Source: Sipunculus nudus (Eukaryota; Annelida; Sipuncula; Golfingiida; Sipunculidae). From it: 64,000 nucleotides of DNA. Shown here in pieces: positions 7,149 to 57,883 of this stretch (position 1 is the stretch's first letter; every line of letters begins with the position of its first letter). The stretch covers positions 9,523,664 to 9,587,663 of the forward strand of contig CM049315.1 in NCBI GenBank assembly GCA_026874595.1. Reading direction: 5' to 3'. The position numbers and the translations under genes are program-made. Under the pieces are notes generated by a model. It was not told where the DNA came from, did not search any database, and worked only from the letters and a program-made list of their open reading frames with translations.

Positions 7149-7161
7149 GCACTAGAGAATC

Positions 7162-7803
7162 ATGTCAGATTCAGAAGATGAGGCAGCGTTTCAGAGCGCA
7201 GATGAAGGAGAGGAAACATCCAAAACGTCCAAAACAAAACGGTCGATGAAATCTGAGGGAGATCCCCAGACAGGGGAGAAGAAGAAAGAAGCTGCTGCAG
7301 CAGAGGCCCAGCCTTCATCTGGCAGTGGCCAGTCACCAAAGAAAAATCAAAGTAAATCAAAAGGGAAGCAAGCCGAAAAGAAAAAGGCGGCAAAAAAGCC
7401 ATCTTCAAATAAACAGTCTGCCAAGAAAGCTGATAATCCAAGGACTGATAGTGATAAGCCAGATTCATCCTCCATGTCACAAACTGATAAAATATCTGAA
7501 AGTCCTACTGAGATTAATGATAAGCTTGCTGAATTAGACATTAAAGACAGTCCAGGTGACAGCGCTGCCACCTCTGTGTCAGAACCCGTGACCAGCCCAG
7601 ATAAGGAACCAACAGAAATAACAGAAGTAGAGAAGCCAGCAACAGATAGAACAGAGGAGCTCTCTAGCACTGAAGGTGTGAAAGAGAGTTCTGCCCCTGT
7701 ACTAGAGCAGCCATCTGCTTCTGCTGATCCAAATACAGAGCAGTCGTCCACTCCTGAACCAGAGAAACAAGCCCAAACACCAGCAAAGACAGCCAACAAC
7801 CAG
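7162..7803 (+). CDS. FAM114A2: FAM114 coding exon 1 (start codon)
   Basis: ATG at 7162, 13 bases after acceptor TAG|GC (exon from 7149). Encodes MSDSEDEAAFQSADEGEETS and the Lys-rich, Ser/Thr/Pro-rich N-terminal tail (214 codons). Donor CAG|GTAGTA at 7804. The frame remains open to 7965, but that extension is intronic and ends in a TA repeat. Confidence 0.9.
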
Positions 7804-7894
7804 GTAGTAAATGTTATATTATACAAGTCATGCAGAAACAGCTTTAGATTCTTTAAACCAAGTAAAATATCACAGGCACGCAATAATGTATATA

Positions 7895-7949
<55 letters not shown>

Positions 7950-13900: not shown

Positions 13901-16900
13901 CCACAGTTGATCCAGGTGTCAAACCCAACTCATCTAGTAGTTGTTTTGAAAAACAAAATAACAATAAACAATAAATTAATAATTTTGTATTGGTTTTTTA
14001 TAACAAATTAAAAAAAAATTAATAGAAAAGGAATTTGTTAGTTGATGAGTAACAGAAAATTAACTTGCAGTTGCTGATGATGTAAGAATCTTGAATGGAT
14101 GGATAGAATGTCAATGTCAATGTTATTCCAAATAACACCATGCAGTCACCTATGGTATTTTTCAGTGAAATTTTAATGATAAAAAAATAAATCATATTAT
14201 TCATTACTAATCATTAGGGATCATATGAAGGAAATTAATGATAGACAAAGATGCAGTTGATAATATTAATCTAGATTCCTACTGTGTCTAGTGTGTAGAT
14301 TGATGTGAAAGTAGTCCAAAGTGAATATATTACATTTATTTTTATGCCCCCGCCACAAAGTGGCCGGGGCATATAGTTTTACCCATGTCCGTCATTCCGT
14401 CCTTCCGTCCTTCCATCCTTCCGTCATTCCGAAATCAAACTATGGACTTTTTTTCGCAATGCCTGCAGATATTGACCTGATTTTTGGTGTGTGGGCAGAT
14501 ATAGGCCAGTTACAGATCGAGTTCGCGTTTCGTCCCGGTTGACCTACTTTTGACCGTTTTACGGCTCCTAAACTTAGAAAATTTCATGAAAAATAGAAAT
14601 ATTCATGACAGATACACATGTACAGACTTTTTTTCGCAATGCCTGCAGATATTGGCCTGATTTTTGGTGTGTGGGCAGATATAGACCAGTTACAGATCAA
14701 GTTCGCGTTTCATCCCAGTGGACTTACTTTTGACCGTTTTACGGCTCCTAAACTTAGAAAATTTCATGAAAAATAGAAATATTCATGACAGATACACATG
14801 TACAGACTTTTTTTCGCAATGCCTGCAGATATTGGCCTGATTTTTGGTGTGTGGGCAGATATAGACCAGTTACAGATCAAATTCACGTTTCGTCCCGGTT
14901 GACCTACTTTTGACCATTTTACGGCTCCTGAACTTAGAAAATTTCATGAAAAATATGAAATTTCATGACAAATACACATGTACGGACTTTTTTTCGCAAT
15001 GCCTGCAGATATTGGCCTGATTTTTGGTGTGTCGGCAGATATTGACCAGTTACAGATGGAGTTCGCATTTTGTTCTAGTTGACCTACTTTTGACTGTTTT
15101 ACGGCTCCTGAACATAGAAAATTTCATGAAAACTATAAATTTTCATGACAAATACACATGTACGGACTTTTCTTCGCAATACCTGCAGATATTGGCCTGA
15201 TTTTTGGTGTGTGGGCAGATATTGACCAGTTACAGATGGAGTTCGCATTTTGTTCCAGTTGACCTACTTTTGACTGTTTACGGCTCCTGAACATAGAAAA
15301 TTTCATGTAAAATATAAATTTTCATGACAAATACACTTGTACAGACTTTTCTTCGCAATACCTGCAGATATTGGCCTGATTTTTGGTGTGTGGGCAGATA
15401 ATGTCCAGTAATAGATCAAGCTTACGTTTTGTCCCAGTTGACCCATTTTTGACCGTTTGACGCTGCTCTAACATAGAAAATTTCATAAAAAAGTGCACAT
15501 GTATGGACTTTTTTTTGCAGTGCCTGCAGATAGGGCCTGATTTTTGGTGTGTAGGCAGATAATGACCAGTTACAGATTGAGTTCTTTTTTTGTCTCAGTT
15601 GACCTACTTTTGACCATTTGACTGCTCCTGAACATAGAAAGTTTCATGAAAAATATGAAATTTTCATAACAAATGCATATGTACTGACTTTTTTTCCTCA
15701 ATGCCTGCAGATACCACCCTGATTTTTTATGTGTGGGCAGAAAATGACAGTTACAGATTGAGTTTGCGTTTCATCCCGGTTGACCTACTTTTGATTGTTT
15801 TACGGCTCCTAAACATAGAAAATTTCATAAAAGACACATGTATGGACTTTTTTTTACAATGCCTGAATATACTGGCATGATTTTTGGTGTGTTTCTTGAT
15901 AATGACCCGTTACAGATCGAGTTTGCATTTTGCCCTTGTTGACCTACTTTTGACCATACGACACCTCCTGAACTTAAAAAATTTTTTTATAATTTTACAA
16001 ATGTTTCTAATTTGCCCAAGGCGGGGGCATTCGTGTCGTTCCGACACATCTAGTTTTAATATAAATAAAAGCCATAAAACCAGGTACTTATGATCATTAT
16101 TTAAATTTGTGAATTTTGTATATTCTGAATTCTCAACATCTTTGTTTGGCTAAAACTGAATAAATACTAGACATGGTGCGAAGTCTTTGCAAATGTATTT
16201 GAATATGAATATGAATATGTACTGCATTACAAAATTTTATTGCATAAGAATGGGAATTCAGGTAAAAATGAATGTATTTGAATACCAGTGCAGATGCTTT
16301 CAAAATGTATTCATGAATGCATTCATGAATATATTCTATAATATTATTTCAATAATCATTTCAGTTATATTTTATTTTAAAAAATCATATGATTTTCTTA
16401 TTATTTTTTTAAAATAAAAATTATATTGGCACAATATTTGTTATTAAATTTTAATAAATAGTTAAACTCTTTTATAATATGTGCTGCTTATAAGTTATAT
16501 GGCCAAGTCAAAATCTGTGTAACAATAGCACTCCATTTGTTAATAAAATAAATTGAAATCAATTTTCTTCCCTGTCTCCAAAGATACTAATAAAATCATA
16601 CATAAGCTAAACACCAACAACTCATAATAAAGCTTATATTTATTACCACACAAAACAAGCATGTGCCTCTTTCCCAAATCATATTTTTAGCTCAACTGAC
16701 TATAAGTCATCTGAGCTATAGTCGTGGTCCATTGTCCGTCGTCCGTCCGTCCGTCCGTCCGTCCGTAGATGTGGCACGTTTTTAAACCGTAAGACCTAGG
16801 AATCCAAAATTCGGCATAATGTGAGATGTCCCCAAGATCTCCTACCAAGCCGAAAACTGGGTGTTTGCAACTTTGTTCCTTCGAGAAATTAAGGAAAAAC

Positions 16901-40421: not shown

Positions 40422-40618
40422 TCATGACCTCTTTCCCCTTTTGTTTCCCGCGGGAGGTTTCTGTAGGGGGAACACTTGCCCTTCGGGAGCTGTCCCTGCT
40501 ACGGGAGTTGCTGTACCAGTTGGCTGTGTCTGCTGCTGTGGTGTGCTGAACCCCCCTGTGCTGCTGCTGCCAAACAGGCTGCCAGATGCCATCCCACTGC
40601 TGCCACCAAAACCTGACC
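40422..40618 (-). CDS. NUP58: NUP58 exon 12 (stop, basic tail)
   Basis: Acceptor CTGCAG|GG. Encodes SGFGGSSGMASGSLFGSSST, a Gln/Thr-rich stretch and VFPLQKPPAGNKRGKRS, with TGA at 40424-40422. Separated from exon 11 by a 4.4-kb intron with a SINE and a large minisatellite. Confidence 0.95.
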
Positions 40619-43600
40619 CTGCAGAGAAGAAGCACCCGATTTACTAACTTATGATGCTGTCAGTATCAAGAAAAGCGTCCAATTTACAAATTATGTTAAA
40701 AATGCCATGAGAAATCACTTGGTTTACTAACTGATGACAAAGAAAAAAGTTGAGAAATTAGGCCAAAAAAAATTAAAGGCATGGTTCTCAGGCACCGCCC
40801 GCATCAATTTTAACCCCCCCCTTCAAAAATTTTTATTTTGATTTTCAACAGAAACTTGCCGATTTTGAGCTGCAGCCACTCAGATATTTCTTTCAAGTAG
40901 ATAAAATCATGCAATTTCCTTTGTTATGTAGTGCTTTAGCTTGTTTAGCAAAATAAATCTGTTATTCTCATGTCTTTGACAATTTTATCGAAACATACAA
41001 AAAAATAAAATAAAAAAAAACCGCCCGCCTGCATTGATTTCTGAAAAAAAGTGCCTGAGAACCATACCTTTTTTTTATTTTGGCCTAAAGCAAATCCGAT
41101 GTAGGACCAGTAAAAAAAAAAAGGCAAAGGACGGCATCTCATAACTAATGACGATGTAAAACGAACAGACATCAGTTTTAATGCAGAGGATGCCAAAACA
41201 GTTTACATATTGAGCAAAAATTTGTTAGTGAAGAAGCAGAAATGCAAGAAAAGAAAATGCATGAAAATATTTTTTGTTGTTGGAGGCAACCACCATTTTT
41301 TGATGCTTGCTTTACATCTGCAGATTTCCATTCTGGTTTCAGACTACGTGACAGGGCAGTATCACACACTTCCTCTCATTTTATATCCTGGCATTAACCA
41401 GGCCCGGTCACTACTGCACCTGCAGGCCCTGGGTGTGTAATTGTTCCCACTGCTAGGTCATACCACTGAGGAACCTCAGAAAGGAAAACTCATTTGCAAG
41501 TGAAACACAGCCGTTGGGCATGACCTTCCCATTAAGCCTGCAGAGCATTCACCCTGGGTGGGGGCTGGCCATGAAAAATCTCACCGCCGAGGCTGAGATT
41601 CAAAACTCACAAACTCCAGGCTTTGAGTCCCTTGCTCTGCCCTTGAGCCACAGAACCCAGTTCTAGATGTGAAAATTGAAGATAATAGTTTTGAAGAAAC
41701 TGATGTTTCTTGTCAATGGTAGGTAGGACAGACAAAGTAGGGTTTGGATGGTTACTGGTATTTGGGAATTTCAAGGTACCTGCCAGCTACAATGTTAGTA
41801 TCATCAGCTTCTCTGTTATAGTGATATCAGGATATACATTATAATACATTATTTTTGGTTCACATGCATGCACCTGAAGATTATTTTCTGAAAAAAAAGG
41901 CACCTCTAGGGTCTATGTTCAGAATAAGATTTATATTTATATTTTACTACTATATAAATGATTCATCTTCATTAACTGGAATTCTATAATTAACTTATTA
42001 TTAAAATATAACAAAAATACAAGGATACAAGTATGTTTAAAATGATAATAATCAACAAATTGATTTATTCATGATCTCCAAAAACTGTGTGATTCTCTGG
42101 TTTTTAAGAAGTTATAGAAAACATAACAAAAAGTCCTTGCAAACAGGATTTGACTACAGGGGCAGGGGTTCCCACAGTCAAGATCCAGCCACTGACTTCA
42201 TGCAACTTATCATCACTTAATGTTAAATGCTGTGATACTGACACAGAGATAACCATAGTTACCCCCCAAGTCTAAAGTCATGACTGTAATTGTATTGGCA
42301 ACTGTTATTATTGATAGCTCATCAGCTCAAAGAATATTTCATGAATAACAGTTTAAAGCTTAATATAATTTATTTAAATTTTTATGGGTTATTTCAGTTC
42401 TGACATCTGTCATCTATTCAAGTTAATTCAGAACTTATTTGCCATGTATTTTCAGTAGTGCTTTTATTGTTTGTTTCTCTTGCTTACAAGCACAAGTTGA
42501 AATACTCATGATATAACTATAAAACAATATATCATGACACATTTTATATAATTATCATGATATATAAAAATTATATTGTCCTAACACTAAAACAGATACA
42601 GATCTGGGCAGGTGAGTATAAAGAAATGGCCTTCAATATAAAATATGGTTGCCAATGGCAAAAATGTATATCACTGCATAAATTAATGATTAATACAAAC
42701 TTGGCCTTTCTTAAAGCTGCAAAAAAATATGATAAAATTTGAAAATGAGTTTTAATCCAGAATCAGGTATACCCCTGCAAATTATAATGGATTTCCTAAG
42801 AAATTATCCAGAAATCATTGAGTTATTCAAAAAGAGTTAAAAGCAAAATGGACAAGAGGAGCTACAAGCAGGAAGAGACAAGAGGAGCTACAAGCAGAAT
42901 GGGACATGAGGAGCTACAAGCAGAATGAAACATGAGGAGCTACAAGCAGAATGAGACATGAGGAGCTACTAGCGGAATCGGACATGAGGATCTACAAGCA
43001 GAATGGTACATGAGGAGCTACAAGCAGAATGGGACATTGGAAGCTACAAGCAGAATGGGACATGAGGAGCTACAAGCAGAATGGGACATGAGGAGCTACA
43101 AGTGGAATGGGACATAAGGAGCTACAAGCAGAATGAGACATGAGGAGCTACAAGCAGAATGAGAAATGAGGAGCTACAAGCAGAATGAGACATGAGGAGC
43201 TACAAGCACAAGGGGACATGAGGAGCTACAAGTGGAATGGGACATGAGGACCTACAAGCAGAATGGGATATGAGGAGCCACAAGCAGAATGAGACAAGAG
43301 GAACTACAAGCAGAATGAGACATGAGGAGCTACAAGCAGAATTAGAGGAGGAGCTACAAGCAGAATGGGACATGAGGAGCTACAAGCAGAATGGAACAAG
43401 AGGTGCTACAAGCAGAATGGGACATGAGGACCTACAAGCAGAATGGGATATGATGAGTTACAAGCAGAAAGGGACAAGAGATACTAAAAGCAGAATGGGA
43501 CATGAGAAGTAACAAGTAGAATGGGACATGAAGAGCTACTAGCGGAACGGGATTTGAGGAGCTCCAAGCAGATTGGGACATGAGGAGCTACAAGCAGAAT

Positions 43601-46600
43601 GAGACATGAGGAGCTACAAGCAGAATTAGAGGAGGAGCTACAAGCAGAATGGGACATGAGGAGCTACAAGCAGAAGGGGACATGAGGAGCTACAAGTGGA
43701 ATGGGACATGAGAAGCTACAAGCAGAATGAGACATGAGGAGCTACAAGCAGAAGGGGACATGAGGAGCTACAAGTGGTATGGGACATGAGTAGCTACAAG
43801 TGGAATGGGACATGAGGACCTACAAGCAGAATGGGATATGAGGAGTTACAAGTAGAATGGGACATGAAGAGCTACTAGCAACATGAGACATGAGGGTTAC
43901 AAGCAGAAAGGGACAAGAGATGCTAAAAGCAGAATGGGACATTGGAAGCTACAAGCGGAATGGGACATGAGGCGCTACAAGCGGAAGGGGACATGAGGAG
44001 CTACAAGCAGAACGATACATGAGGAGCTACAAGCAGAAGGGGACTTAAGGAGCTACAAGCAGAATGAGACATGAGGAGCTACAAGCAGAATGGGACATGA
44101 GGAGCTACAAGCAGAATGGAACAAGAGGTGCTACAAGCAGAATGGGACATGAGGAGCCAGAAGCAGAAGGGGACATGAGGAGCTACAAGTGGAATGGGAC
44201 ATGAGGAGCTACAAGCAGAATGGGACATGAGGACCTACAAGCAGAATGGTATATGAGGAGTTACAAGTAGAATGGGACATGAAGAGCTACAAGCAACATC
44301 GGACATGAGGGTTACAAGCAGAAAGGGACAAAAGATGCTAAAAGCAGAATGGGACATTGGAGGCTACAAGCAGAATGGGACATGAGGAGCTACAAGCAGA
44401 ATGGGACATGAGGAGCTACAAGCAGAATAGAACAAGAGGAGCTATAAGCAGAATGGGACAAGAGCTGCTACAAGCAGAATGAAAAATCTGAAAGAAACAA
44501 CAATATCAGAAAGCCCCCCGTTAATATAGCAAAGATAAGCAGATCAATGATAAAGCTGATATAACGAGGAAAGATCAACAGGGAGTAAGCCTAAAGTTGT
44601 TTTCCTACAAGTCCTGACTGTAAAATTGTAGTCTGTATAAAAGAGTAAATGTGGATCTCCAAATAATGATTTGCACACTTGTAAAATTTTTGGTTATATA
44701 CTGACTTTATGTGTGGACATTGGGCTATTTATTTCTGTGCATTTTACATATTATCATATTTTAATTTAATGTAAGCTGTAGTCACTTTTTTATGTAGCAA
44801 TTATATAAAGAAATGGAAAATTTCCAAAAGTACGAATTTCATGTCACATGTTTTGACATAATAAACTGGGAAACAAAATCTATGTAGAATACATATAAAG
44901 AATACAAATATACAATACAGGCTTGTAGGAAGGTTAGTTTAATACTGCAAACCATGCGGGTGGCAGGGTTATCTAAAGAAAGAAGTTTCCTTACCACCAC
45001 TAACCTAGTGGTTTGCTGGAGCCAAAGCCAAATGTAGTTCCTGTAGCAGCAGATGTCTTGGCTGTACTGCCAAACAGGCTAGCCCCGCCTCCAGTCCCTC
45101 CCCCTGCAGTGACATGACAGGTGTCAATCAAGTTTTCTCTCCTGTCAGGTGACTGTCTATATCAAAATGTTCATAACTGCTTGGCCTGATATGTATGTAG
45201 CTGCATGATGCAGGTTTGACCTTTGATCCTCAAAAATATACACAAAAACCCTTTTATAGAGAGATGTGGGTCAAGGTATAGGCCAGATATGATTTTTATG
45301 ATAATAATATTCAAATGTAAATATGAATGAACAGCATTTATAAAGGACCGCTTTCAGCATTAAATCAAATGATATGAGATTATAGCCACCTCAGCAGTAC
45401 AAAAATATTCTATAAAAATATGTCATTCTTGAAAATATAATGCTCTTCTTGGTAAAATATACCTAACAAGGCCTATCAGGCAGTAAACTAGTAGTTTGCT
45501 AGTTTGCTTGTACATGACTTAAGGCATGAGTAGAAGCTCACTCCAGGTAAAGCATTTGTACCATAATAAGCGTACTTTGTTGCGTTGCAAAGAGCACTGA
45601 CATATCACTTCTCAGTGATAATATCACACAGCTTATTGAAATATTTAGACTGCTTAAAAAGAATCCTCTTAGTGGTATGAATTAAGCTCAAACAAAGTAA
45701 AGTTGTAATGATCCACTGATATACCAATATGGTAGAGGTGTTAGTTAGCCAATCAGATCCAAATAATTGTGGTTCTTTTTATATTCATGAGGTTAAAATT
45801 TTGCAATTTATCAGTTTTTCGGGGTTTCACGGGGGATTGATTTTTCACAATCTCACAATACAATGAACTACACAGGGTATATCCTTTATTGTATGAATTA
45901 TTTAATATATTTGTTAAAGTATTTACAGTTTGCAAAGGACCCTGGAAACATCAAATGATAGGAAATTCCTCTTAATTATAAATCTCAATAACAATATCAG
46001 TCTGTGATTTACAGATTACCATAAATGTTTCTTTTAATATTAATAATATCATACTTTTGCCATGTGACATTGCAGGCATTGGATATATTGAAGATATGCC
46101 AGTGAGACTGCGTAATACACAAATATTCACCTTTGCATCTGGGGATGCACACAGGAATTATTTTCGCAAAGATTTCCCTTTCACAAATTTTGTGAATTTG
46201 AAATCCTTGTAAACTAAAAGCCAAATGCAGTAACTAATTTGTGACTTAACCCAGATGCCAAAAGCAGCTGGGTAAATGTCAAAATTCTGTTGGATGGTCA
46301 TATTTTGTCAATATGTCAATACAGGGACATCTGATGACAATGATATAAGTATGACTATGTATCAGGATGTGTCGGTCAACCTGTGTACTGTTACAACCCT
46401 CAAAATGACACTCACCAAGTGAAAATCCCGTGGATGAGGAGGTACCGCCGGTCAGACCAGATGATGTTACAGAACCAAACAGACTTGGAGCTCCAGAGGG
46501 AGCCTGCCCCGTGCTGAATGATGAGGCACCTGCAATGCACAAGAGAAACATCAGCTCCTACTACCACAACTCTGTCACCTACACCTTGAGTAACTAGAAA

Positions 46601-49600
46601 TATGCATTCTCACAAATGCAGGCCTCCCCCATGTGGGTGGTCCTTAATGTGGGGTACCCTGTGTTTTCATCCATTTATTGGCCAACATTCCCAGGTTCAC
46701 TGGAGCAAATGTTCCCAAACAAGTATTTTCATTCACTTCCTCTGCCCATATTCCCACTTTCAATCTGGCATAGGTAACTGCAAATTTGTGAATAATCCTC
46801 CCTCAATCCGGATTATGATCCAGATCCACACCAAAATCTAATCAATTCTTAACTGGCCCATTCCTGAGGGGTCCTGAAAATATCATGGGATTCCATTCAT
46901 GACTGCATTAGTTATGTGTAGAACAAATACACACATACACAGACAGGAATAAATACATGTCCTCCTGGTGGAGGCAATAATAAACTGGATACGGCTACAT
47001 TATACCCGAAAACTATGCACATGATAGGTCTCTACAATATAACAGTCCTCCTTGAATTTGATCTGGATCCATATTCTTGAATTCACATGGTAAACAAATA
47101 CTGATTTTAGTTTCACTCCCTAGATGGCAGCACACACTATATCCGGAAGCTGTAATTTAGATGGGTATTATCAACCGAAAGGGAATCACAATAAAACAGG
47201 ATAAAGGTCTGCAGTCTCCTCACAATTTAGGTGTATATAAACAGTGTCACCTGCTGGTTGTTGTGTTCTGTTAAGAACAGACGCCATCGCCATAGCTGAG
47301 GCACTGACACCACCAGTGAAAGAAGATGGTCCAATGGTTGTTGGCGGTTGTCGTGTAATGGTAGACTTATCCACTGCCTTCCTCTTCTCAAATATGTCTG
47401 TCATATCACCATGGAATACTCGCCGGTAGTTTAGGTACTGCTCTTTCAAGTTCTGCCAAGTAATTAAAAATAAGTGATGATCCTAATTATAACTTAAAGA
47501 ATTTTCAATATCACAGCATACATAAATATGTGAAAGTGATAAGCTTTTCATTATATAACTTTATTTTGCTTTTGTGTTGTGGGGAGGGGTTCCCTATTAA
47601 ATTACATTAAACCATTCATGATCTATTACAAATGAACCTCACATTTCCCATTCTCCTTTGCACTCTTCAAAAACTCAAAATAAGGAACCAAAATTTACTT
47701 CTAACTTCAGAAAATATATTATTCCAAATTTTTAAAATGATACCGTGAATGTACCCAGCTGGATGGCATTCACTCATCCATTAAGGTAAACAAATATATA
47801 TAAGCACAGAGGACACATAATACACCAAGAGGTCTTCCACTTTAAGATTGAATATTATCAATGCCAGGTTTTAGCTCAGATGGGTAACAATTATTGTTTT
47901 TTTTTTATTTAACAGTACCTGAAATGCCTGCTATACATACCTTGACAGCTTCATGGACAACTTGTAGCTGAGCTGCCAGGGCCAGAAAGCTTTTATGAAG
48001 TCTGGTAAAAAGCATGGATAACTCTGAAACAAAGCAAGGGCAAGGGTCTATTATTAATGCCATTCAAAAAATATTTTGTACTGTAATCTAAAGTGTCAAG
48101 AGATAATACAACATTTTGTATAATACGGTAATACTGCAGACTGGTGGTCAATTTTAAAATGAACACTATTCACAAAACTTACTTCTGTGGTCAAGGTTTT
48201 GGCTAGGTTGTTGAAAGTTATTCATCCGCTGCTCATGGTTCAGTTTTAAAACTGGTAGCTACTTTTTATCTTGCCTTCTTTATATTCTGTCAGTATTAAC
48301 ATTATTTTCCCCCCAAGATAATATGACTACTTTACATATGTTTGCACATAATCATTTGTGATCAACTGCATGAAAATGCAACAATTTTAATTGGCCAAGA
48401 AGAAAAGGACCAATCTCTTACAAACTGATTAACAAGTGTTACACTAATACACAACCTTGAGGAGATCGTGCTGCTGGTTGATTTAGTAGGGCCAAGTGAC
48501 TCTCGAGTTCCTCAATTTGTTGTCTGTACATCAACATCCGTACCTCAAAGTCTTCAACTAAACTATGGAAATACCTGAAAAATAAAGAAAGTAAATCCAT
48601 CACTAAATCCATCACTCTGTAAACACGGTCTGTTATGCAGACTTTTAATTATTTCCAGTTATGACCTCCATGGTATTATTAAATAATTTTACTTTTGGCT
48701 CTATCATGGGAATTATACTTATGTATGAAATATCTGCAAATATTGTCTCAGATTTCCTCACCCTGCAGGTGCTGTGTTCTCGTACTGAAGTCCAGGGGGA
48801 GTGTCTTTAGTTCTCTGGCAGATCTCAGCATTCTTCAGCTCCTGAAACAATATCATTCAGATTTTTCTGTTACCTTAATTATTTCTAACCTGAACTCCTC
48901 ATGCAGTGGTTATAAACTGCAGTCGTTCTATATCTCCTTCATTTTAACAGCTGCTTTGTGTAGCAAGTTTCTCCAGGAGGGCTGACACACAGGGCAAAAT
49001 AATGTGGATTTAAAATCTGTTGGATGCACAATTTAATACCACGCATTCATTGGTCTGATTTCAATTCTTTGGCCTCTGCCAGCCCTGGTTGTGAAACCCA
49101 GTGAATCTTGCTATACAAATCAGTGGTTAAATCAAAGGAAATCTGGAAAGACTGTGGTGTATAACCACTGCATGAGGAGTGAAGGTATAGCTAGAATCAT
49201 TAGATATATATCCCTGAAGTAAAGTTCTCCATGACAGGAAATGATGACTCCATGGATAGTTACCAAGCAGAAATCAGAAATGATGTGGCAGTGATTGGTA
49301 GAATATTTTGGATGAGTATGTTCAGGCCATTTTTAATGTCACAAAATATCTAATGTAAATTAGGTCTGTCTTTCTGGATACCAGTTCTATTGTTACCAAA
49401 TTATGGTTTCCAAAACCAAAAATTTAGGTTGCTGAACACACTCCTCAATGAGGGTCATACAGATTTTCCTCAAAGAAAGAGCTTAGTGATCTCCTGAACA
49501 TATCTATAAAGGTATCTCCAGCACCCACAGCCCACACAATGGACACCTAGTTTTCAAACAGGTGGGGTGCCTTCCCATTATTTAAATACTTTTGAGTGCA

Positions 49601-52600
49601 CTTGTGGGTTTGAGATGAGAATAATTAAAAAATAAATAAATTATACACTTTTGAGAAATTAATTAAGCACTCAGAAGACCCCTGATATATGACCTTAGTC
49701 TTTAAGTATCTGAAGGAAAAATTTATCTGGTGAGACATTAACCATGAGAACTTCAAATATAGCAGCTTGATACTTCTCATAAGAATCGATTTATGAATTG
49801 AATATATTTTCTTCATATAACACAGTAGCAAAATGAACAAGTTTTCAAATTACTCACTGGAAACACAGATTATGATAATCTATCAGCATATTAAAAGGCC
49901 AATTTTTAAAGGTCTTTTTTAAGACATGGTAATATTTCGGTAATTGATTTTTTATCCCAGTTATCCTAGTAAAGTTTATAAAATCTTATCATAAAATATA
50001 AAGATAATTATTGCACCAAAGAACTTGACATCTTCATCATATACTCATGGCCTGACTTCAAGCTGACAATTGTTGTCAATATATCTCCAATCAGCACCTC
50101 AGCAGACTGTGCTTTGAGTTTAGTGACAGCCAGCTCCAGAAACTTACCTGAGCAGACTGTGCTTAGAGTTTAGTGACAGCCAGCTCCAGAAACTTACCTG
50201 AGCTGACTGTGCTTTCAGTTTAGTGACAGCCAGCTCCAGAAACATACCTGAGCAGACTGTGCTTAGAGTTTAGTGACAGCCAGCTCCAGAAACTTACCTG
50301 AGCAGACTGTGCTTTCAGTTTAGTGACAGCCAGCTCCAGAAACTTACCTGAGCAGACTGTGCTTAGAGTTTAGTGACAGCCAGCTCCATAAACTTACCTG
50401 AGCAGACTGTGCTTTGAGTTTAGTGACAGCCAGCTCCATAAACTTACCTGAGCAGACTGTGCTTTGAGTTTAGTGACAGCCAGCTCCAGGAACTTACCTG
50501 AGCAGACTGTGCTTTGAGTTTAGTGACAGCCAGCTCCAGAAACTTACCTGAGCAGACTGTGCTTTCAGTTTAGTGACAGCCAGCTCCAGAAACTTACCTG
50601 AGCAGACTGTGCTTAGAGTTTAGTAACAGCCAGCTCCAGCAACTTACCTGAGCGGACTGTGCTTTCAGTTTAGTGACGGCCACTGCATTGCGTTGTAGAC
50701 TGTTAGACACCAGAGCCAGTAGCTGTCTGAGGTTGTCCACCTCTTCCTGTACTTTGTACATGTCACGTGATGACATTCTGGCTATTTCTTCACGCTCAGC
50801 CTTCTGGCTCTTCATGTGCTTTCTGTAACAGCAAACCCACAAAAACAATTCATGAGCAGGATAGGGAACAAATCATAACAAAACACAAAACAAGTACTGT
50901 GAGACCTTGTTGTGTCAATGTTAAAGGGGCCAACTGAAATAGCAAAGGTTTAGCCTAAGCTGGTTCAATTTTATTCAACTTGAGAGTATTTAATACATGG
51001 TATTACTGCATATTGGAGACCACACATGGCAGTTGATATCACAGAACATACTAGAAAGAACTGTACACATAGGATAACACAACCAAGTAGATTAAGCATC
51101 AAATTGTGGAACAGGCATTGAATTGTGGAGTTTGACAGATAGCAGAATGACGAAAGACAACTAGATGTGTCGGAACGACACGAATGCCCCCGCCTGGGGC
51201 AAATTAGAAACATTTGTTAAATTTTGAAAAATTACAGGAGTACAGGAGGTGTCGTATGGTCAAAAGTAGGTCAACAAGTGCAAAATGCAAACTCGATCTG
51301 TAACGGGTCATTATCAAGCAACACACCAAAAATCAGGCCAGTATCTGCAGGCATTGTGAAAAAAAGTCCATATATGTGCATTTTCCATAAAAATTTCTGT
51401 CTTTCATGAAATTTTCTATGTTTAGGAGCCGTAAAATAATCAAAAGTAGGTCAACCGGGCTGAAACGCGAACTCGATCTGTAACTGTCATTATCTGCCCA
51501 CACATAAAAAATCAGGGTGGTATCTGCAGGCATTGAGGAGAAAAAGTCCGTACATATGCATTTGTTATTAAAATTTATATTTTTCATGAAATATTCTATG
51601 TTCAGGAGCAGTCAAATGGTCAAAAGTAGGTCAACTGGGACAAAACAAGAACTCGATCTGTAACTGGTCATTATCTGCCTACACACCAAAAATCAGGCCC
51701 GTATCTGCAGGCACTGGGAAAAAAGTCCGTACATGTGCACTTTTTTATGAAATTTCTATGTTAGAGCACCGTCAAACGGTCAAAAGTAGGTCAACTGGGA
51801 CAAAACGTGAACTCAATCTGTAACTGGTCATTATCTGCCCACACACCAAAAATCAGGCCAATATCTGCAGGTATTGTGAAAAAAAGTCTGTACATGTGTA
51901 TTTGTCATGAAAATTTATATTTTTCATGAAATTTTCTATGTTCAGGAGGTGTAAAACGGTCAAAAGTAGGTCAACTGGGACGAAACACGAACTTGATCTG
52001 TAACTGGTCAATATCTGCCCACACACAAAAAATCAGGCCAATATCTGCAGGCATTGGGAAAAAAAGTCTGTACATGTGTATTTGTCAAGAAAGTTCATAT
52101 TTTTCATTAAATTTTCTATGTTCAGGAGCCGTAAAACGGTCAAAAGTAGGTCAACCGGGACGAAACGCGAACTCGATCTGTAACTGGCCTATATCTGCCC
52201 ACACACCAAAAATCAGGTCAATATCTGCAGGCATTGCGAAAAAAAGTCCATAGTTTGATTTCGGAATGACGGAAGGACGGAAGGATGGAAGGACGGAATG
52301 ACGGACATGGGTAAAACTATATGCCCCGGCCACTTTGTGGCGGGGGCATAAAAATAAATGTAATATATTCACTTTGGACTACTTTCACATCAATCTACAC
52401 ACTAGACACAGTAGGAATCTAGATTAATATTATCAACTGCATCTTTGTCTATCATTAATTTCCTTCATATGATCCCTAATGATTAGTAATGAATAATATG
52501 ATTTATTTTTTTATCATTAAAATTTCACTGAAAAATACCATAGGTGACTGCATGGTGTTATTTGGAATAACATTGACATTGACATTCTATCCATCCATTC

Positions 52601-55600
52601 AAGATTCTTACATCATCAGCAACTGCAAGTTAATTTTCTGTTACTCATCAACTAACAAATTCCTTTTCTATTAATTTTTTTTTAATTTGTTATAAAAAAC
52701 CAATACAAAATTATTAATTTATTGTTTATTGTTATTTTGTTTTTCAACATGTGTATTTGTCAAGAAAGTTCATATTTTTCATTAAATTTTCTATGTTCAG
52801 GAGCCGTAAAACGGTCAAAAGTAGGTCAACCATAACGAAACGCGAACTCAATCTGTAACTGGTCTATATCTGCCCACACACCAAAAATCAGGCCAATATC
52901 TGCAGGTATTGCGAAAATAAGTCTGTACATGTGTATTTGTCATGAAAATTTATATTTTTCATGAAATTTTCTATGTTCAGGAGGTGTAAAACGGTTAAAA
53001 GTAGGTCAACTTAGACAAAACATGAACTCGATCTGTAACTGGTCAATATCTGCCCACACACCAAAAATCAGGCCAATATCTGCAGGTATTGCGAAAAAAA
53101 GTCTGTACATGTGTATTTGTCATGAAAATTTATATTTTTCATGAAATTTTCTATGTTCAGGAGGTGTAAAACAGTCAAAAGTAGGTCAACTTAGACAAAA
53201 CATGAACTCGATCTGTAACTGGTCAATATCTGCCCACACAAAAAAAATCAGGCCAATATCTGCAGGCATTGCGAAAAAAAATCTGTACATGTGTATTTGT
53301 CATGAAAGTTCATATTTTTCATTAAATTTTCTATGTTCAGGAGCCGTAAAACGGTCAAAAGTAGGTCAACCATGACGAAACGTGAACTCGATCTGTAACT
53401 GGTCTATATCTGCTCACACACCAAAAATCAGGCCAATATCTGCAGGCATTGCGAAAAAAAGTCCGTACATGTGTATTTGTCATGAAAATTTCTATTTTTC
53501 ATGAAATTTTCTAAGTTTAGGAGCCGTAAAACGTTCAAAAGTAGGTCAACTGGGACGAAACGTGAACTCAATCTGTAACTGATCATTATCTGCCTACACA
53601 CCAAAAATCAGGCCAATATCTGCAGGCATTGCGAAAAAAAGTCTGTACATGTGTTTTTGTCATGAAAAATTCTATTTTTCATTAAATTTTCTAAGTTTAG
53701 GAGTCGTAAAACGGTCAAAAGAAGGTCAACTGGGACGAAACACAAACTTGATCTGTAACTGGTCTATATCTGCCCACACACCAAAAATCAGGCCAATATC
53801 TGCAGGCAATGCGAAAAAAAAGTCTGTACAACTGTTTGATTTCAGAATGACGGAATGATGGAAGGACGGACATGGGTAAAACTTTATGCCCCGGCCACTT
53901 TGTGGCGGGGGCATAAAAATTATGAGAATAGTAACATACAGCAGCTCACAGGAACATCAGAGGTTCATGATAGCCCTAAACAGCATGTTCTGAGTTTGTT
54001 TATTTTCAGACCTGAATACAGAAATCCTAGATTTAAATACAGAAGGCTTAATGAAAACAAATCTACCCATCCAACTTCTATCCAGATCTTCTTTTTATCT
54101 ATTTACCTTTATAGTACCTGTCTGTCTAGATATAAAGGTAAAAGGTAAAGGTTAGGGTTTATAGTCTGATATCACTGAACATGTCAGTCTCATCCCACTT
54201 TACACTAGATATGATTGTACCCTCTGACATCTGAAATGGAGCATAAGGGATGGACAATTTTGTGTGAGCATGCCTGAAATGCTTCATTTTAGAGAATGTG
54301 TAACAATTTGGTCCTACATCTTCAACAGAATGAAATATAAAATGGGATCACAGGCTGGAAGCAAAGCTGCTCGTTGTATTTTTATTTCACACTTTGGTGA
54401 CCTTGATACTACTAATAAAACTAAATATAATACCTGAACTGTTCCACTGCACCAGAAATATCTGCTGGTAGTGCGACTTCTTTGACAACTTTACTGTCAC
54501 TGTCATACAAACAAAAGAAGGAAAAACAGATTAAAATATATTTTACCATAACTTTAATTTATACTTTACCCTGATGAATTATAACACCACATAACACATT
54601 ATTGACCCTGCACGTTTTTTTAACATTTTCTGTATTGGAATCTTTAAAAATAATAGGCAATGATATTACGTTTCTCTGGAAATTCTGAACTTGTATTCAC
54701 AAACTTCATGAATGAATAAATATACAGGGAAAGGAAAATATATTTAACAGTTTTCATGACAGATGAACATACTTAATGCTTTTCCACATGCACAACATTT
54801 GGAAGCCAATGGTCATTGATGATTCAATTATGGAAAATCTGTTATCTGTTCCAAAGTTAATCAGTCTTACATTTTTGATTTTATGCCTGGTAGGTTAGTT
54901 TAAACTTGTATTGGTGATTAGATTTAAAGATCTGAGGAAAACAGATCATTATCTCACCTTGTCTTGCCTGTTCCTGAAACTGTACCTGCAAGAAAGACAA
55001 TTCATTTTAATATAGATACAATAACAGTCACTAAATGTGATGAAATCCCTTGGAAGTTAATCTGATTTGAGGATTCTCAAGAAGCAATGAGTGATGAGAC
55101 TGGCATTTCTCACTTGCACTGAACATTCAGCTTATAAAGATAATACAATAACAGAAGTTAGAATTTCACTGTGCATTATATCTGAATCGATTCAATATTT
55201 TGTATCAAGCTATCTGTCTGAGACTTCAATAATTCTGACTTCTGTTTTCTGAAAACATTAACTGCTCAACTGATTACTAAAGATAAACACTACTTTACCC
55301 ACAGATTACTTAACCAAATCCCCCCCCCCCTCCAAAAAAAGAAATCCAACAATAACACTGCTTGTTTTCAGGTGCACAAATAAGCATGAAAAATTGCTCA
55401 TATGGTTTTGTAACAGTGGTATTTCCAGGTGCCCATCAGTGTATATGCATGTGTTGTATATGTATAAAAACTGCTACAAGAGCGATTTCCTTGCACAAGG
55501 TCTACGTGAACACAGTAATTCTGGTTAACTGACAACACTTTAACATCTAGATTGGGAAGAACTGCAAAAGTGCTAGATCCTCTGTACCACCTTTAGCAGT

Positions 55601-57883
55601 TCACACAAAAATGCAAACATGTAAACAGGATTTTTTTAATATAAACACACGGGGTAACACAGCTTGACAGATTAAAGTTAACAGGATACAGATTTAGATG
55701 TAACTTGTACCTTTACCTGTCCCGGTTGTGGATAACTTTGGATCAACTCCACCGAGGCCTTTTGTCGTGGCTGAGGCCGTGGCACTGAATATGTTCCCTG
55801 TGTTTGCTGCAGGCTGTGTGCTTGCTCCACCTGTAGAAGGATGGTGTGAATTCAGGTATTTTTATTAATACGGCACAAGATTAGCATGTTATTTTAGAAC
55901 TGCTTTTCAAAAATGGTTCAGAACTTATTGGCTTAAAAAGATGCATCAATTTTGGGTGAATGTAAGTATGTTTAGTGAATTAAAAATGCAACTCTGATAA
56001 TAACAGTTTTTTCCACCATATAATTATAAAGAATAAACATTTTTTTGTAATATTACAAGTTTTTGTACCAAGTGTGTCCAGTGTTTTTCTATGATACAGG
56101 ATGATCTGTTGTGTAATTCTCTCAAACATGTTTCTGTTGACATAGTATGTTGTGAAGACTAATAACAATGCTCAAATACTGAAAAATGATAAATAAATGA
56201 AATCACGACAACCAAAATTCATTTAGTAACATGATATAATGTAACCAAACTATGCAAACTTAAGTTTGCTACATTTTTAATATATATATATATATAAATA
56301 TACACACACACACAGTAGAACGCCTGCTAACAGCCACGCCTCAATAACGGTCAATACGTGTATAATGGTCAGATTTTCCGGTCCCAAATTTTTTACGTTA
56401 TATTTCATTATCATTTTGTTGTCAATTACGGTCACTCCTCTATTCCATATTACGGCCAGATCTCTCAGTCCCGCAGGCCGGGAAACGCTTCAATTACGGT
56501 CATGGGCAGTGACTCCGTAACAAGGGCTCAACAAATCGAGCGGCCGCTTCTGACCTTATTATCATTACACAAGTGTCCCCTCTCACATATTCCTGTCTAT
56601 TAATGAGTGCCTGGATAAAGGTAACCAGATGACCGTGACTGAGTTGTTTGACACAGCTAGCGTCTTACTACCCAACTCAGCCTCATTAGTATGCATAATA
56701 GTAAGGCATGTGTTCTGACCTGCGTGTATGTTTGGGAATCAGTCGTGCGAGTCCGACCTTAATCAGGGTGTTTGTCATTTAATTAACGAATGACAACCAG
56801 CGGGTCCCAATAAATATGTCAGCAGAAAAACGTTAGACAAATTGTGGATCTTTAAACTTTCTTTAATGTCCTTGTGAACACGTACATCAAATGACAACAG
56901 TGCGGCAAACATCGCACAATTTACTCATATATGAATAATTATGAATGCAAAATAAACATTGTTACATGTATTAAATGTTATGCATACTCTGTCCCAATTC
57001 CTTTGACCATTATGGCCACTAAGAAAAGACATGAACTTGCTCTCAAAGAAAAGGTAGATCTGATCAGGAAGAGTGAAAGGAAAAGCAGCTGACAGAAATC
57101 TATGGTGTCCATCGAACTTAAGTTCAAAACATATTTGTATATATTGTTGGTAATTGTTATAAATAGGGCTGACGTGTTTGTAAATTTATTTTTTATTCAT
57201 AATAGTAATTATACTAATACTCTGTGTATACGCATTTTTGTTGATTGCAATAAAGATTTGAACTTGGTTTAGTGTTACATTATAACCCCCTATCCTGGTC
57301 AAGTGCTGTATAACGGCCACTCCTGTATTAAGGCAACTTTAATCAAGTCCCGATGGTGACCATAATACAGGCTTTCTACTGTATATATATATATATATAA
57401 CTATGGTAAATATTACTGAATATGTAAACAATACAGTGACCTACCAAAGTTAAACCCAGAAGCCGTGGTGGTGGTGTTTGCACCAAGAGTAAGACCGGTT
57501 GCTGTCGTCCCTGTTGTAGTGGTTGTGGTGCCAAGCTTTACTCCACCGAGTGAGAACCCAGTAGACGCTGTGGTAGTGGCTGTACTCCCCAAACTGAACC
57601 CACCACCAGTGGTTGACGTGGATGGTGTTCCTAGTTTAAAGCCACCACCCAGTCCAGTTGTTCCTGAAGTTGCTTGTGTGGATGTTGCCCCTAATGTTAA
57701 TCCAGTTGCTGTAGTAGTCGCAGGGGTAGGTAATGCAAACCCTGTTTTGTTCTGACCTCCGAGACCTGCCGTGCTCAAGTTTCCAAATTTAAAGCCACCA
57801 GTGCCGCCCCCTAGTGACAAATTAGGGGCTGCTGTGGCTGGAGCCTTTGTCTGGCTCAGGTTCCCAAATGAGAAATTTGCCAT
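40422..57883 (-). CDS. NUP58: Nucleoporin NUP58 (p58/p45, NUPL1), 12 coding exons
   Basis: Exons in order of translation: 57883-57445, 55830-55717, 54985-54958, 54499-54434, 50822-50648, 48841-48762, 48574-48456, 48023-47941, 47452-47251, 46529-46416, 45103-45005, 40618-40422. They join in phase to 572 codons with stop; human NUP58 is 599 residues. Residues 1-190 form a Thr/Gly-rich FG domain (FSFG, FKFG, FKLG, FSLG, FNFG). Residues about 195-420 are helical with the conserved RMSSRDMYKVQEEVDNLRQL, ELKNAEICQRTKDTPPGLQY, MYRQQIEELESHL and LKEQYLNYRRVFHGD segments, the part that in vertebrates pairs with NUP54 and NUP62 in the central-channel complex of the nuclear pore. Residues about 435-555 are a second FG region (SLFG three times, FGFG). 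The tail PPAGNKRGKRS is nearly invariant in the family. FG repeats bind transport receptors. Convergent with the FAM114 gene. Confidence 0.95.
40619..41384. other. NUP58 intron 11, part next to the last exon
   Basis: Contains an inverted pair: 'atggttctcaggcac' near 40781-40795 and 'gtgcctgagaaccat' near 41051-41065, with 'aggccaaaaaaaa' and 'ttttggcct' farther out, i.e. a ~300-bp potential hairpin or TIR-bearing MITE (about 40760-41092). Confidence 0.5.
41385..41667 (-). mobile_element. tRNA-derived SINE (minus orientation)
   Basis: On the minus strand from about 41662: TGGCTCAAGGGCAGAG (A-box-like, close to tRNA D-arm) followed about 40 nt later by GTTTTGAATCTC (B-box-like). A ~200-bp body runs toward 41385. 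The layout is that of a tRNA-derived SINE head with an unrelated body. No target duplication identified. Confidence 0.6.
41668..42842. other. NUP58 intron 11, middle
   Basis: AT-rich, no recognised element. Confidence 0.5.
42843..44484 (+). repeat. Large minisatellite, 26-bp unit, roughly 63 copies
   Basis: The unit contains 'gggacatgaggagctacaag' followed by 'cagaat', with variants (gtggaatggg, gaaggggaca, attagaggag). Higher-order blocks of several units recur, for example 'attagaggaggagctacaag' at about 43341 and 43625. The internal open frame (43237-43512) is an artefact of the repeat, since 3 x 26 bp = 26 codons. It lies in NUP58 intron 11. Confidence 0.97.
44485..45004. other. NUP58 intron 11, part next to exon 11
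   Basis: No recognised feature. Confidence 0.5.
45005..45103 (-). CDS. NUP58: NUP58 exon 11 (FG region)
   Basis: Acceptor CTGCAG|GG, donor CTAG|GTTAGT. Encodes GGTGGGASLFGSTAKTSAAT then TTFGFGSSKPL. 33 codons, phase 1. Confidence 0.9.
   Translation of the reverse strand, partial: GEGLEAGLACLAVQPRHLLLQELHLALAPANH
45104..46415. other. NUP58 intron 10
   Basis: AT-rich, no recognised element or extra exon. Confidence 0.5.
46416..46529 (-). CDS. NUP58: NUP58 exon 10 (FG region)
   Basis: Acceptor TTGCAG|GT, donor CTTG|GTGAGT. Encodes ASSFSTGQAPSGAPSLFGSV and TSSSTGFSL. 38 codons, phase 1. Confidence 0.92.
46594..46980 (-). mobile_element. Short HINE-like element E, copy 2
   Basis: On the minus strand it begins ATTGCCTCCACCAGGAGGA (hairpin), has subterminal GGAGGC, then hairpin TGCATT..AATGCA, and ends TATTTCTAG (CTAG at 46597-46594). 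It pairs with the copy at 6014-6248. Confidence 0.6.
47251..47452 (-). CDS. NUP58: NUP58 exon 9
   Basis: Acceptor TGGCAG|AAC, donor AGCAG|GTGACA. Encodes NLKEQYLNYRRVFHGDMTDI and the linker to the C-terminal FG region. 202 nt, phase 1. Confidence 0.95.
47453..47940. other. NUP58 intron 8
   Basis: Nothing recognisable besides splice signals and a short poly(T). Confidence 0.5.
47941..48023 (-). CDS. NUP58: NUP58 exon 8
   Basis: Acceptor TTTCAG|AG, donor AAG|GTATGT. Encodes ELSMLFTRLHKSFLALAAQL then QVVHEAVK. 83 nt, phase 0. Confidence 0.93.
48024..48455. other. NUP58 intron 7
   Basis: Nothing recognisable. Confidence 0.5.
48456..48574 (-). CDS. NUP58: NUP58 exon 7
   Basis: Acceptor TTTTCAG|GTA, donor CAAG|GTTGTG, a weak donor. 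Encodes YFHSLVEDFEVRMLMYRQQI then EELESHLALLNQPAARSPQ. 119 nt, phase 1. Confidence 0.93.
48762..48841 (-). CDS. NUP58: NUP58 exon 6
   Basis: Acceptor TTTCAG|GAG, donor GCAGG|GTGAGG. Encodes ELKNAEICQRTKDTPPGLQY then ENTAPA. 80 nt, leaves phase 2. Confidence 0.95.
48842..50090. other. NUP58 intron 5, part next to exon 6
   Basis: Unique-looking sequence between exon 6 and the exon-derived minisatellite. Confidence 0.5.
50092..50690 (-). repeat. 50-bp minisatellite derived from the NUP58 exon 5 end and its splice donor
   Basis: Exactly 50-bp periodicity. The plus-strand phrase 'acttacctg' (GTAAGT donor on the minus strand) ends at 50150, 50200, 50250 and so on to 50650: 11 copies, of which the one at 50650 is the real exon 5 donor. 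Each unit contains about 36 bp matching the exon end (encoding AVTKLKAQSAQ in the right frame) plus about 14 bp of intron. One copy has a changed donor (GTATGT, near 50250). The rest keep GTAAGT. Confidence 0.95.
50648..50822 (-). CDS. NUP58: NUP58 exon 5 (coiled-coil)
   Basis: Acceptor GTTACAG|A, donor CTCAG|GTAAGT at 50647. Encodes KHMKSQKAEREEIARMSSRD through VAVTKLKAQSAQ, the best conserved helical stretch. 175 nt, phase 0. Its last 36 bases plus the donor are the template of the adjacent 50-bp minisatellite. Confidence 0.95.
50830..51160. other. NUP58 intron 4, part next to exon 5
   Basis: Nothing recognisable. Confidence 0.5.
51161..52349 (-). mobile_element. HINE-like element A2, complete
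   Basis: Minus orientation: 5' ATGCCCCCGCCACAAAGTGG (from 52349), GGACGGAAGG-type microsatellite (plus 52262-52310), six ~180-bp monomers, 3' GGCGGGGGCAT, hairpin GTGTCGTTCCGACAC and CTAG (51164-51161). Same ends as A1. Confidence 0.72.
52350..52747 (-). repeat. Copy of the element B tail, lying between A2 and A3
   Basis: Reverse complement of 13946-14343, apparently without gaps, including a 61-codon chance frame that is identical in both copies. Together with the first 226 bp of A2 it forms the 624-bp inverted block shared with 13946-14569. Confidence 0.85.
52748..53914 (-). mobile_element. HINE-like element A3, 3'-truncated
   Basis: Minus orientation, 5' end ATGCCCCCGCC.. at 53914, CCGTCC/CATCATTCC-type microsatellite (53840-53875), six ~180-bp monomers. 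It stops mid-monomer at 52748, where the element B tail copy abuts. No 3' hairpin or CTAG on this copy. Confidence 0.68.
53915..54433. other. NUP58 intron 4, part next to exon 4
   Basis: No recognised feature. Confidence 0.5.
54434..54499 (-). CDS. NUP58: NUP58 exon 4
   Basis: Acceptor GACAG|TGACAG|T is a tandem acceptor 6 nt apart (AG at 54501-54500 or 54495-54494). Both keep the frame and differ by residues DS. Encodes KVVKEVALPADISGAVEQF. Donor TCAG|GTATTA. 66 nt, phase 2. Confidence 0.88.
54958..54985 (-). CDS. NUP58: NUP58 exon 3 (28-nt micro-exon)
   Basis: Acceptor CTTGCAG|GT, donor CAAG|GTGAGA. Encodes TVSGTGKT. Needed to move from phase 1 to phase 2; skipping it would break the frame to exon 4. 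Confidence 0.85.
54986..55716. other. NUP58 intron 2
   Basis: Poly(C) run at 55320-55330. Otherwise nothing recognisable. Confidence 0.5.
55717..55830 (-). CDS. NUP58: NUP58 exon 2
   Basis: Acceptor CTACAG|GT, donor ACAG|GTAAAG. Encodes ASTQPAANTGNIFSATASAT then KGLGGVDPKLSTTGT. 38 codons, phase 1. Confidence 0.9.
56313..57381 (+). mobile_element. pogo/Tigger-like transposon relic (about 1.07 kb)
   Basis: Terminal inverted repeats CAGTAGAACGCCTG (left) and, on the reverse strand, CAGTAGAAAGCCTG (right, ending 57381), beside TA-rich flanks as expected for TA-targeting Tc1/mariner/pogo elements. From ATG 57012 a short frame reads MATKKRHELALKEKVDLIRK, the start of a CENP-B/psq-type helix-turn-helix as in pogo/Tigger transposases. 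It then breaks at a stop about 26 codons in and no catalytic domain follows. Internal 'attacggtca' / 'ataacggcca' motifs recur near both ends. Non-autonomous deletion derivative inside NUP58 intron 1. Confidence 0.75.
57445..57883 (-). CDS. NUP58: NUP58 exon 1 (start codon, N-terminal FG domain)
   Basis: ATG at 57883-57881, 5 nt after acceptor TTTCAG|GTAAA (exon from 57888), so an upstream non-coding exon exists. Encodes MANFSFGNLSQTKAPATAAP and the Thr/Gly/Leu-rich FG domain. Donor TTTG|GTAGGT at 57444. 439 nt, phase 1. Confidence 0.95.

Follow-up and report, generated by a model that had tools for sequence, protein, structure and literature searches.

Results

A tandem array of 5' splice sites begins at the end of NUP58 exon 5

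The end of exon 5 of NUP58 in the Sipunculus nudus DNA analysed here (a stretch of 64,000 nucleotides, referred to as the window) is the first copy of a 50-bp minisatellite that repeats the exon's 5' splice donor through the adjoining part of intron 5. It is probably, in our view, a neutral minisatellite of the type that has been termed a mirage in amphioxus, and one that is tolerated because the first of its donors prevails. The repeated-donor array itself is real: twelve copies of the unit lie on the minus strand starting from the exon 5 end, the true donor is in copy 1 and is followed by ten intronic decoys, and the ends of the donor-bearing copies (Table 1; 50647 is the first intronic base of the true donor) are all separated by exactly 50 bp. 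The unit is composed of approximately the last 34 exonic and the first 16 intronic bases, held in a 50-bp register. The exon closes with GCTCAG at 50648 and the intron opens with GTAAGT; CAG/GTAAGT is present at 10 of the 11 donors and CAG/GTATGT at the other. Eleven extra copies of the unit are thus found within intron 5, ten with an intact-looking splice signal, and the twelfth copy of the array, at 50097, has lost its donor (GAG/GTGCTG) and diverges from the unit in its last bases. TRF reports 94% matches and 0% indels across the array. A previous reading of the sequence alone had described the exact spacing, the eleven donors with ten decoys in the intron, and the ten GTAAGT and one GTATGT motifs, all of which are borne out by the listing of copies (the GTATGT copy is that at 50247); it had also placed the last exonic base at 50648 and the start of exon 6 at 48841, and both borders agree with ours.

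Table 1. Positions of the NUP58 gene features and of the exon 5/intron 5 array, numbered from the first base of the window.
Feature	Positions	Strand	Copy end	Method
NUP58 coding span, 12 exons (gene model), 571 codons open throughout	40423..57883	-
NUP58 exon 5, 175 nt (ATG exon = 1); final ~34 nt form the exonic portion of copy 1	50648..50822	-
50-bp tandem array, 11.7 copies	50096..50682	-		TRF
True donor CAG/GTAAGT (copy 1), conserved protein when spliced here	50642..50650	-	50647
Decoy donor 1 CAG/GTAAGT	50592..50600	-	50597
Decoy donor 2 CAG/GTAAGT	50542..50550	-	50547
Decoy donor 3 CAG/GTAAGT	50492..50500	-	50497
Decoy donor 4 CAG/GTAAGT	50442..50450	-	50447
Decoy donor 5 CAG/GTAAGT	50392..50400	-	50397
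Decoy donor 6 CAG/GTAAGT	50342..50350	-	50347
Decoy donor 7 CAG/GTAAGT	50292..50300	-	50297
Decoy donor 8 CAG/GTATGT	50242..50250	-	50247
Decoy donor 9 CAG/GTAAGT	50192..50200	-	50197
Decoy donor 10 CAG/GTAAGT	50142..50150	-	50147
Twelfth copy, donor lost (GAG/GTGCTG)	50084..50133	-
TAA reached on true-donor read-through, within GTAAGT of decoy 1	50594..50596	-
NUP58 intron 5, 1806 nt	48842..50647	-
NUP58 exon 6, acceptor TTTCAG/GAGCTG	48762..48841	-

We count 12 occurrences of CAGGTAAGT in the window, including 10 inside the array, against 0.59 expected from shuffled sequence, and none of 100 shuffles reaches 12. The 599-bp array matches only itself in one assembly of 1.43 Gb (1,426,538,692 bp in 153 contigs), although this search skips very common words and a single match is not proof of uniqueness. 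A 19-base segment of the unit has no exact counterpart among viral contigs, and with the same search tool no NUP58 relative was found there; a search of Rfam at gathering thresholds returned no match within the window.

The first donor makes the conserved protein

The earlier identification of the gene as NUP58 is confirmed by Pfam family PF15967 (Nucleoporin_FG2), which covers the first 473 residues of the product (E = 1.7e-104), and by alignment to vertebrate proteins: 203 residues, beginning at the end of exon 3 and reaching into exon 9, give an alignment without gaps to NUP58 of Xenopus (E = 1.8e-66) and human (E = 6.8e-62). Because this gapless alignment takes in the exon 5/6 junction as joined at the first donor, donor 1 makes the conserved protein, in agreement with the role that the sequence-only reading had assigned to it.

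None of the decoys can do the same. Use of decoy 1 would add 50 nt and shift the frame, with a stop no more than two codons from the junction, and use of any of decoys 2–10 would include the TAA listed in Table 1, which lies 17 codons beyond the true donor. A premature stop thus follows from all ten, and conserved NUP58 needs the first donor. Both the truncation by any decoy and the stop about 17 codons into read-through had been predicted, the latter being exact. It had also been proposed that the decoys still encode AVTKLKAQSAQ in one frame; this is so for six of the ten, but the copies at 50597, 50347, 50247 and 50147 have an in-frame TAA.

Decoy donors are as strong as the true donor and vary like the rest of the unit

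We compared the donors by a donor scoring matrix and by pairing with the U1 end. On this basis the exon 5 donor has the top score of the gene's eleven donors (12.75 bits) and the most favourable duplex energy of the ten tested (-12.1 kcal/mol, the others ranging from -6.7 to -11.1). Exactly the same two values are shared by nine of the ten decoys, the GTATGT copy being weaker (9.8 bits, -8.3 kcal/mol), and the full nine-base pairing to U1 is identical in 10 of the 11 donors. With ten of eleven donors equally strong, sequence strength cannot explain a choice of the first, and position must. We do not rely on secondary structure hiding the decoys, because the accessibility ranking changes with the size of the folding window: the nine bases of the true donor are predicted to be more accessible than those of all ten decoys at 80 nt (with copy 4 within twofold), and are again the highest at 150 nt (copy 10 within twofold), but at 240 nt two decoys rank above the true donor.

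Variation among the decoys falls in 7 of the 50 columns of the unit, one of nine in the donor and six of 41 elsewhere (Fisher p = 1), and in 1 of 90 donor cells versus 12 of 410 other cells (p = 0.48). Tested across the decoys, stronger conservation of the donors than of the rest of the unit was not found; the donor columns vary like the others, and the decoy donors are therefore under no visible constraint. The decoys are on average 95.7% alike and the exonic copy is 89% like them, as would be expected if the array turns over internally while coding holds its edge copy. Compared with the decoy consensus, the exonic copy differs at four coding positions; the three internal differences are synonymous and the one at the edge is V to L. 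The variants CTGAAA, CTCAAA and CTCTAA reappear in copies that are not adjacent, a distribution consistent with unequal exchange within the array, and duplication across a short TGGC microhomology would be a plausible origin.

Alternative explanations for the array

The sequence-only reading had suggested that donor choice tunes NUP58 output, with regulated or stochastic use of decoys leading to premature stops and nonsense-mediated decay. The stop that follows from every decoy and the nine decoys that score exactly like the true donor are what such a mechanism would use, and copy-number variation between individuals would make it a graded dial, but we think it unlikely. The decoy donors show no excess conservation, the F7 and amphioxus precedents considered below are reported to splice from the authentic donor, and the stop is not of a new kind, since a transcript that simply retained intron 5 would run into the same TAA. 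As it stands, the proposal is unsupported by the column counts and by the precedents alike.

In a second alternative, every unit would work as a dual-specific or recursive splice site, and the array would remove itself stepwise to leave no trace in the mRNA. All ten decoys do contain AG/GT, they are preceded at about 25 nt by a branch-like CACTAAAC or TACTAAAC, and human tandem repeats are described as enriched in dual-specific sites (PMC10809524). As acceptors, however, the decoys compare poorly with the true NUP58 sites: the upstream AG is 5–9 nt away in all ten, versus 24–74 nt in nine true acceptors, and the pyrimidine fraction is 0.41–0.59, versus 0.59–0.88, although the two ranges touch at 0.59. 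The nearby AG and low pyrimidine content make recursive or dual-specific splicing unlikely, and the length of intron 5 is not a multiple of 50, unlike introns of the UBC type. We rejected this explanation on both acceptor features and intron length, and regard it as very improbable; with decoy donors that are not extra-conserved and are poor acceptors, neither regulation nor recursive splicing is supported.

An assembly artefact has to be considered, as tandem repeats are error-prone and one assembly lies behind the analysis, but the decoys differ at seven columns in a patterned way, the array gives one match in the 153-contig assembly, and unrelated arrays of the same design are found elsewhere in it, so that an artefact is extremely unlikely. 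We likewise give almost no weight to the array as a platform of extra U1 sites that favours exon 5 recognition or suppresses early intronic polyadenylation: intron 5 does contain eleven donor-like sites of at least 9 bits, the true donor included, versus 0–2 in each of the ten other introns, but the true donor is already the highest-scoring of the gene, intron 5 has no AATAAA and two ATTAAA, and the decoys lack a conservation signal.

Similar donor arrays are present in other genes

We searched the genome for three occurrences of MAGGTRAGT separated by gaps of 11–41, which limits the periods recovered to 20–50 bp. There are 1358 matches (634 + 724), compared with 251 for the reversed word, counts that mix the number and the size of arrays. 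Among the matches listed, and within 265 Mb (C1, C2 and C3:1-55.6 Mb), we recognised 25 further donor arrays, grouped by eye on the assumption that the matches are ordered by position; at one of the 25 loci (L056) TRF finds no tandem array. Each gene has its own unit sequence and period, within the 20–50 bp limits of the search, and the arrays therefore look like separate births rather than one spreading repeat.

At least five of these arrays begin at an exon end that is supported by homology. They are in genes for an ABCC transporter (L042; Pfam 5.9e-6, slightly below the gathering score, and PDB 3.3e-10), an aquaporin (L044; 4.2e-13), a leucine-rich repeat protein (L049; 6.1e-18, a match that stops a dozen residues or more short of the donor), TOM20 (L050; Pfam 5.1e-12, PDB 5.5e-18) and XPD (L055; PDB 1.5e-8). 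By codon count, the PDB alignments of ABCC, TOM20 and XPD stop at the first donor or one residue beyond. In the ABCC gene the next exon, RFYICCSRQLQRIES, continues the protein after TTTTTCAG from the first donor; no continuing exon was found by motif in the few kb analysed around the arrays of the aquaporin, TOM20 and XPD genes. The PDB search took in five upstream peptides, with no downstream control, and gave three clear matches, one marginal match to a PH-domain exon (L040, 0.0012) and no match for L045. At the other 19 loci, 13 were scanned without a clear match and six have either no 30-codon frame across the array start or no TRF array. As a weak control for the homology, Pfam matches below 1e-4 are found for 4 of 30 upstream frames and 0 of 19 downstream frames (Fisher p = 0.15).

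In the ABCC-type intron (G000:C2:8509621-8517185), an array with a 42-bp unit provides 40 donor-like sites that score 7 bits or more, and since its units end in a pyrimidine-rich ACAG/GTAAGT, dual-specific splicing looks more plausible there than in NUP58. At the aquaporin-like locus the exonic donor, AGG/GTGAGT (11.0 bits), is weaker than several AAG/GTGAGT decoys (12.5 bits), such that strongest-donor and first-donor rules predict different outcomes. A long regular array of AAGGTAAGT at G000:C1:1041371-1046191, with steps mostly of 58 bp and nearly 80 places listed, lies outside the gaps of the triple search.

Is there an excess of donor arrays?

As single words, MAGGTRAGT (51217) and its reversal (52617) occur at equal frequency. 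In triplets with gaps of 11–27, genome-wide matches number 522 for the donor word, 80 for the reversal, 73 for a permuted word and 42 for the permuted reversal. Counted as arrays over 265 Mb, there are 13 for the donor word (13 of the 25 fetched loci) versus 3 for the reversed word (binomial p = 0.012) and 1 for the permuted word, a comparison that covers gaps of 11–27 and in which the reversed word is the control with an equal single count. Within C1:1-76.5 Mb, the donor word gives 4 arrays versus 6 for the control with gaps of 11–41, and 2 each with gaps of 11–27. We regard an excess of donor arrays in the genome as likely but not settled, and gene-rich regions, the choice of control word and grouping by hand could all contribute to it.

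Other repeats and features of the window

A second large minisatellite, of about 64 copies of 26 bp, is located in NUP58 intron 11 (window 42834-44481). Its units read acceptor-like on the gene strand (CCCATTCTGCTTGTAG; 51 sites of the three forms searched, with a mean pyrimidine fraction of 0.72), and it touches no exon of the gene model. Arrays of approximately 180-bp repeats are present at 14445-15832 and 51256-53830, those in NUP58 intron 4 adjoining ATGCCCCCGCCACAAAGTGGCCGGGGCAT. The plus strand has a 269-codon open frame at 7156-7965 that includes MSDSEDEAAFQSADEGEE and presumably resembles FAM114 proteins, and some interspersed repeats in the window may resemble those of bivalves.

Discussion

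The explanation that we favour for the NUP58 array is that tandem duplication of the exon 5/intron 5 boundary would have given birth to a minisatellite whose copies fall within intron 5, that the spliceosome would take the exon-proximal, first transcribed donor, and that all of the decoys would leave with the intron lariat. The array would then persist because its copies are intronic and the first transcribed donor is used. On this reading, nearly all splicing of the RNA would start from donor 1, and the array itself would serve no function. The same architecture is present in other genes of this genome, which counts in favour of a neutral minisatellite. Other points count against it. In vitro work with duplicated donors is reported to favour the intron-proximal site when both are bound by U1, which would predict decoy use here; the excess of donor arrays (13 versus 3) is not explained by pure chance placement; and at three of the sister arrays (aquaporin, TOM20 and XPD) the motif search found no continuing exon.

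Choice among equal, closely spaced donors has mostly been studied with engineered duplications and with F7. In the NUP58 array, identical donors follow one another naturally at an exact spacing within an essential gene, and the outcome is scored by survival of the protein. With its sister arrays, standard RNA reads would be enough for a direct test of the first-donor rule. If better controls uphold the excess, it would also point to a bias, so far unexplained, in the sites at which minisatellites are born or persist. It is possible, although we lean against it, that 5' splice sites are hot spots of minisatellite birth or retention in this genome, such that genes, including housekeeping ones (NUP58, XPD, TOM20, ABCC), each have their own array of consensus donors following the true one, and would jointly amount to a natural experiment across the genome in which, among equally strong donors, the one transcribed first wins.

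Several known systems share features with the NUP58 array. A literature search by title and abstract start found, within the terms used, no NUP58 minisatellite and no mirages outside amphioxus. A duplication of a segment across an exon-intron boundary is described in PMC4974935, and the duplicated segment in NUP58 also crosses such a boundary; in contrast to that case, no new intron is evident in NUP58, where intron 5 interrupts the conserved protein and adds no residues. Dual-specific splice sites are reported in the tandem repeats of UBC and VCX3A (PMC10809524), and there, as in NUP58, each tandem unit has AG/GT. In UBC, however, the repeated unit is coding sequence and intron length is an exact multiple of unit length, whereas the 1806 nt of NUP58 intron 5 are not a multiple of 50 and the decoys are without acceptor features.

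Human F7 intron 7, with 37-bp repeats, is closer. Oriented scanning is said to use only its most upstream donor (PMC6627357, which cites Borensztajn 2006), and in both genes the authentic donor belongs to the first repeat, with further repeats and donors behind it that are nearly identical. In NUP58 the gene is another one, the unit is 50 bp and there are eleven donors.

Amphioxus mirages are minisatellite-like duplications of exon-intron boundaries, reported for the globins BflGb6 and BflGb9, for Adh3, and in PMC3902484 for PGBD5 and troponin C. In PMC3087553 and PMC3902484, mirages are described as having AG/GT signals on many repeats, concerted evolution with distinct edge copies, and copy numbers that vary between haplotypes, and regular splicing seems undisturbed by the globin and Adh3 mirages. 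The NUP58 array resembles them in that a tandem repeat spans the boundary with AG/GT on many copies, and in a homogenised cluster with the edge copies set apart. It differs in keeping the donor in exact register in 10 of 11 intronic copies, and whereas splicing and length instability are reported for the amphioxus mirages, the NUP58 array is known here from DNA. By this comparison it appears to belong to a known kind, the mirage-type minisatellite, with amphioxus mirages and F7 intron 7 as its probable closest parallels.
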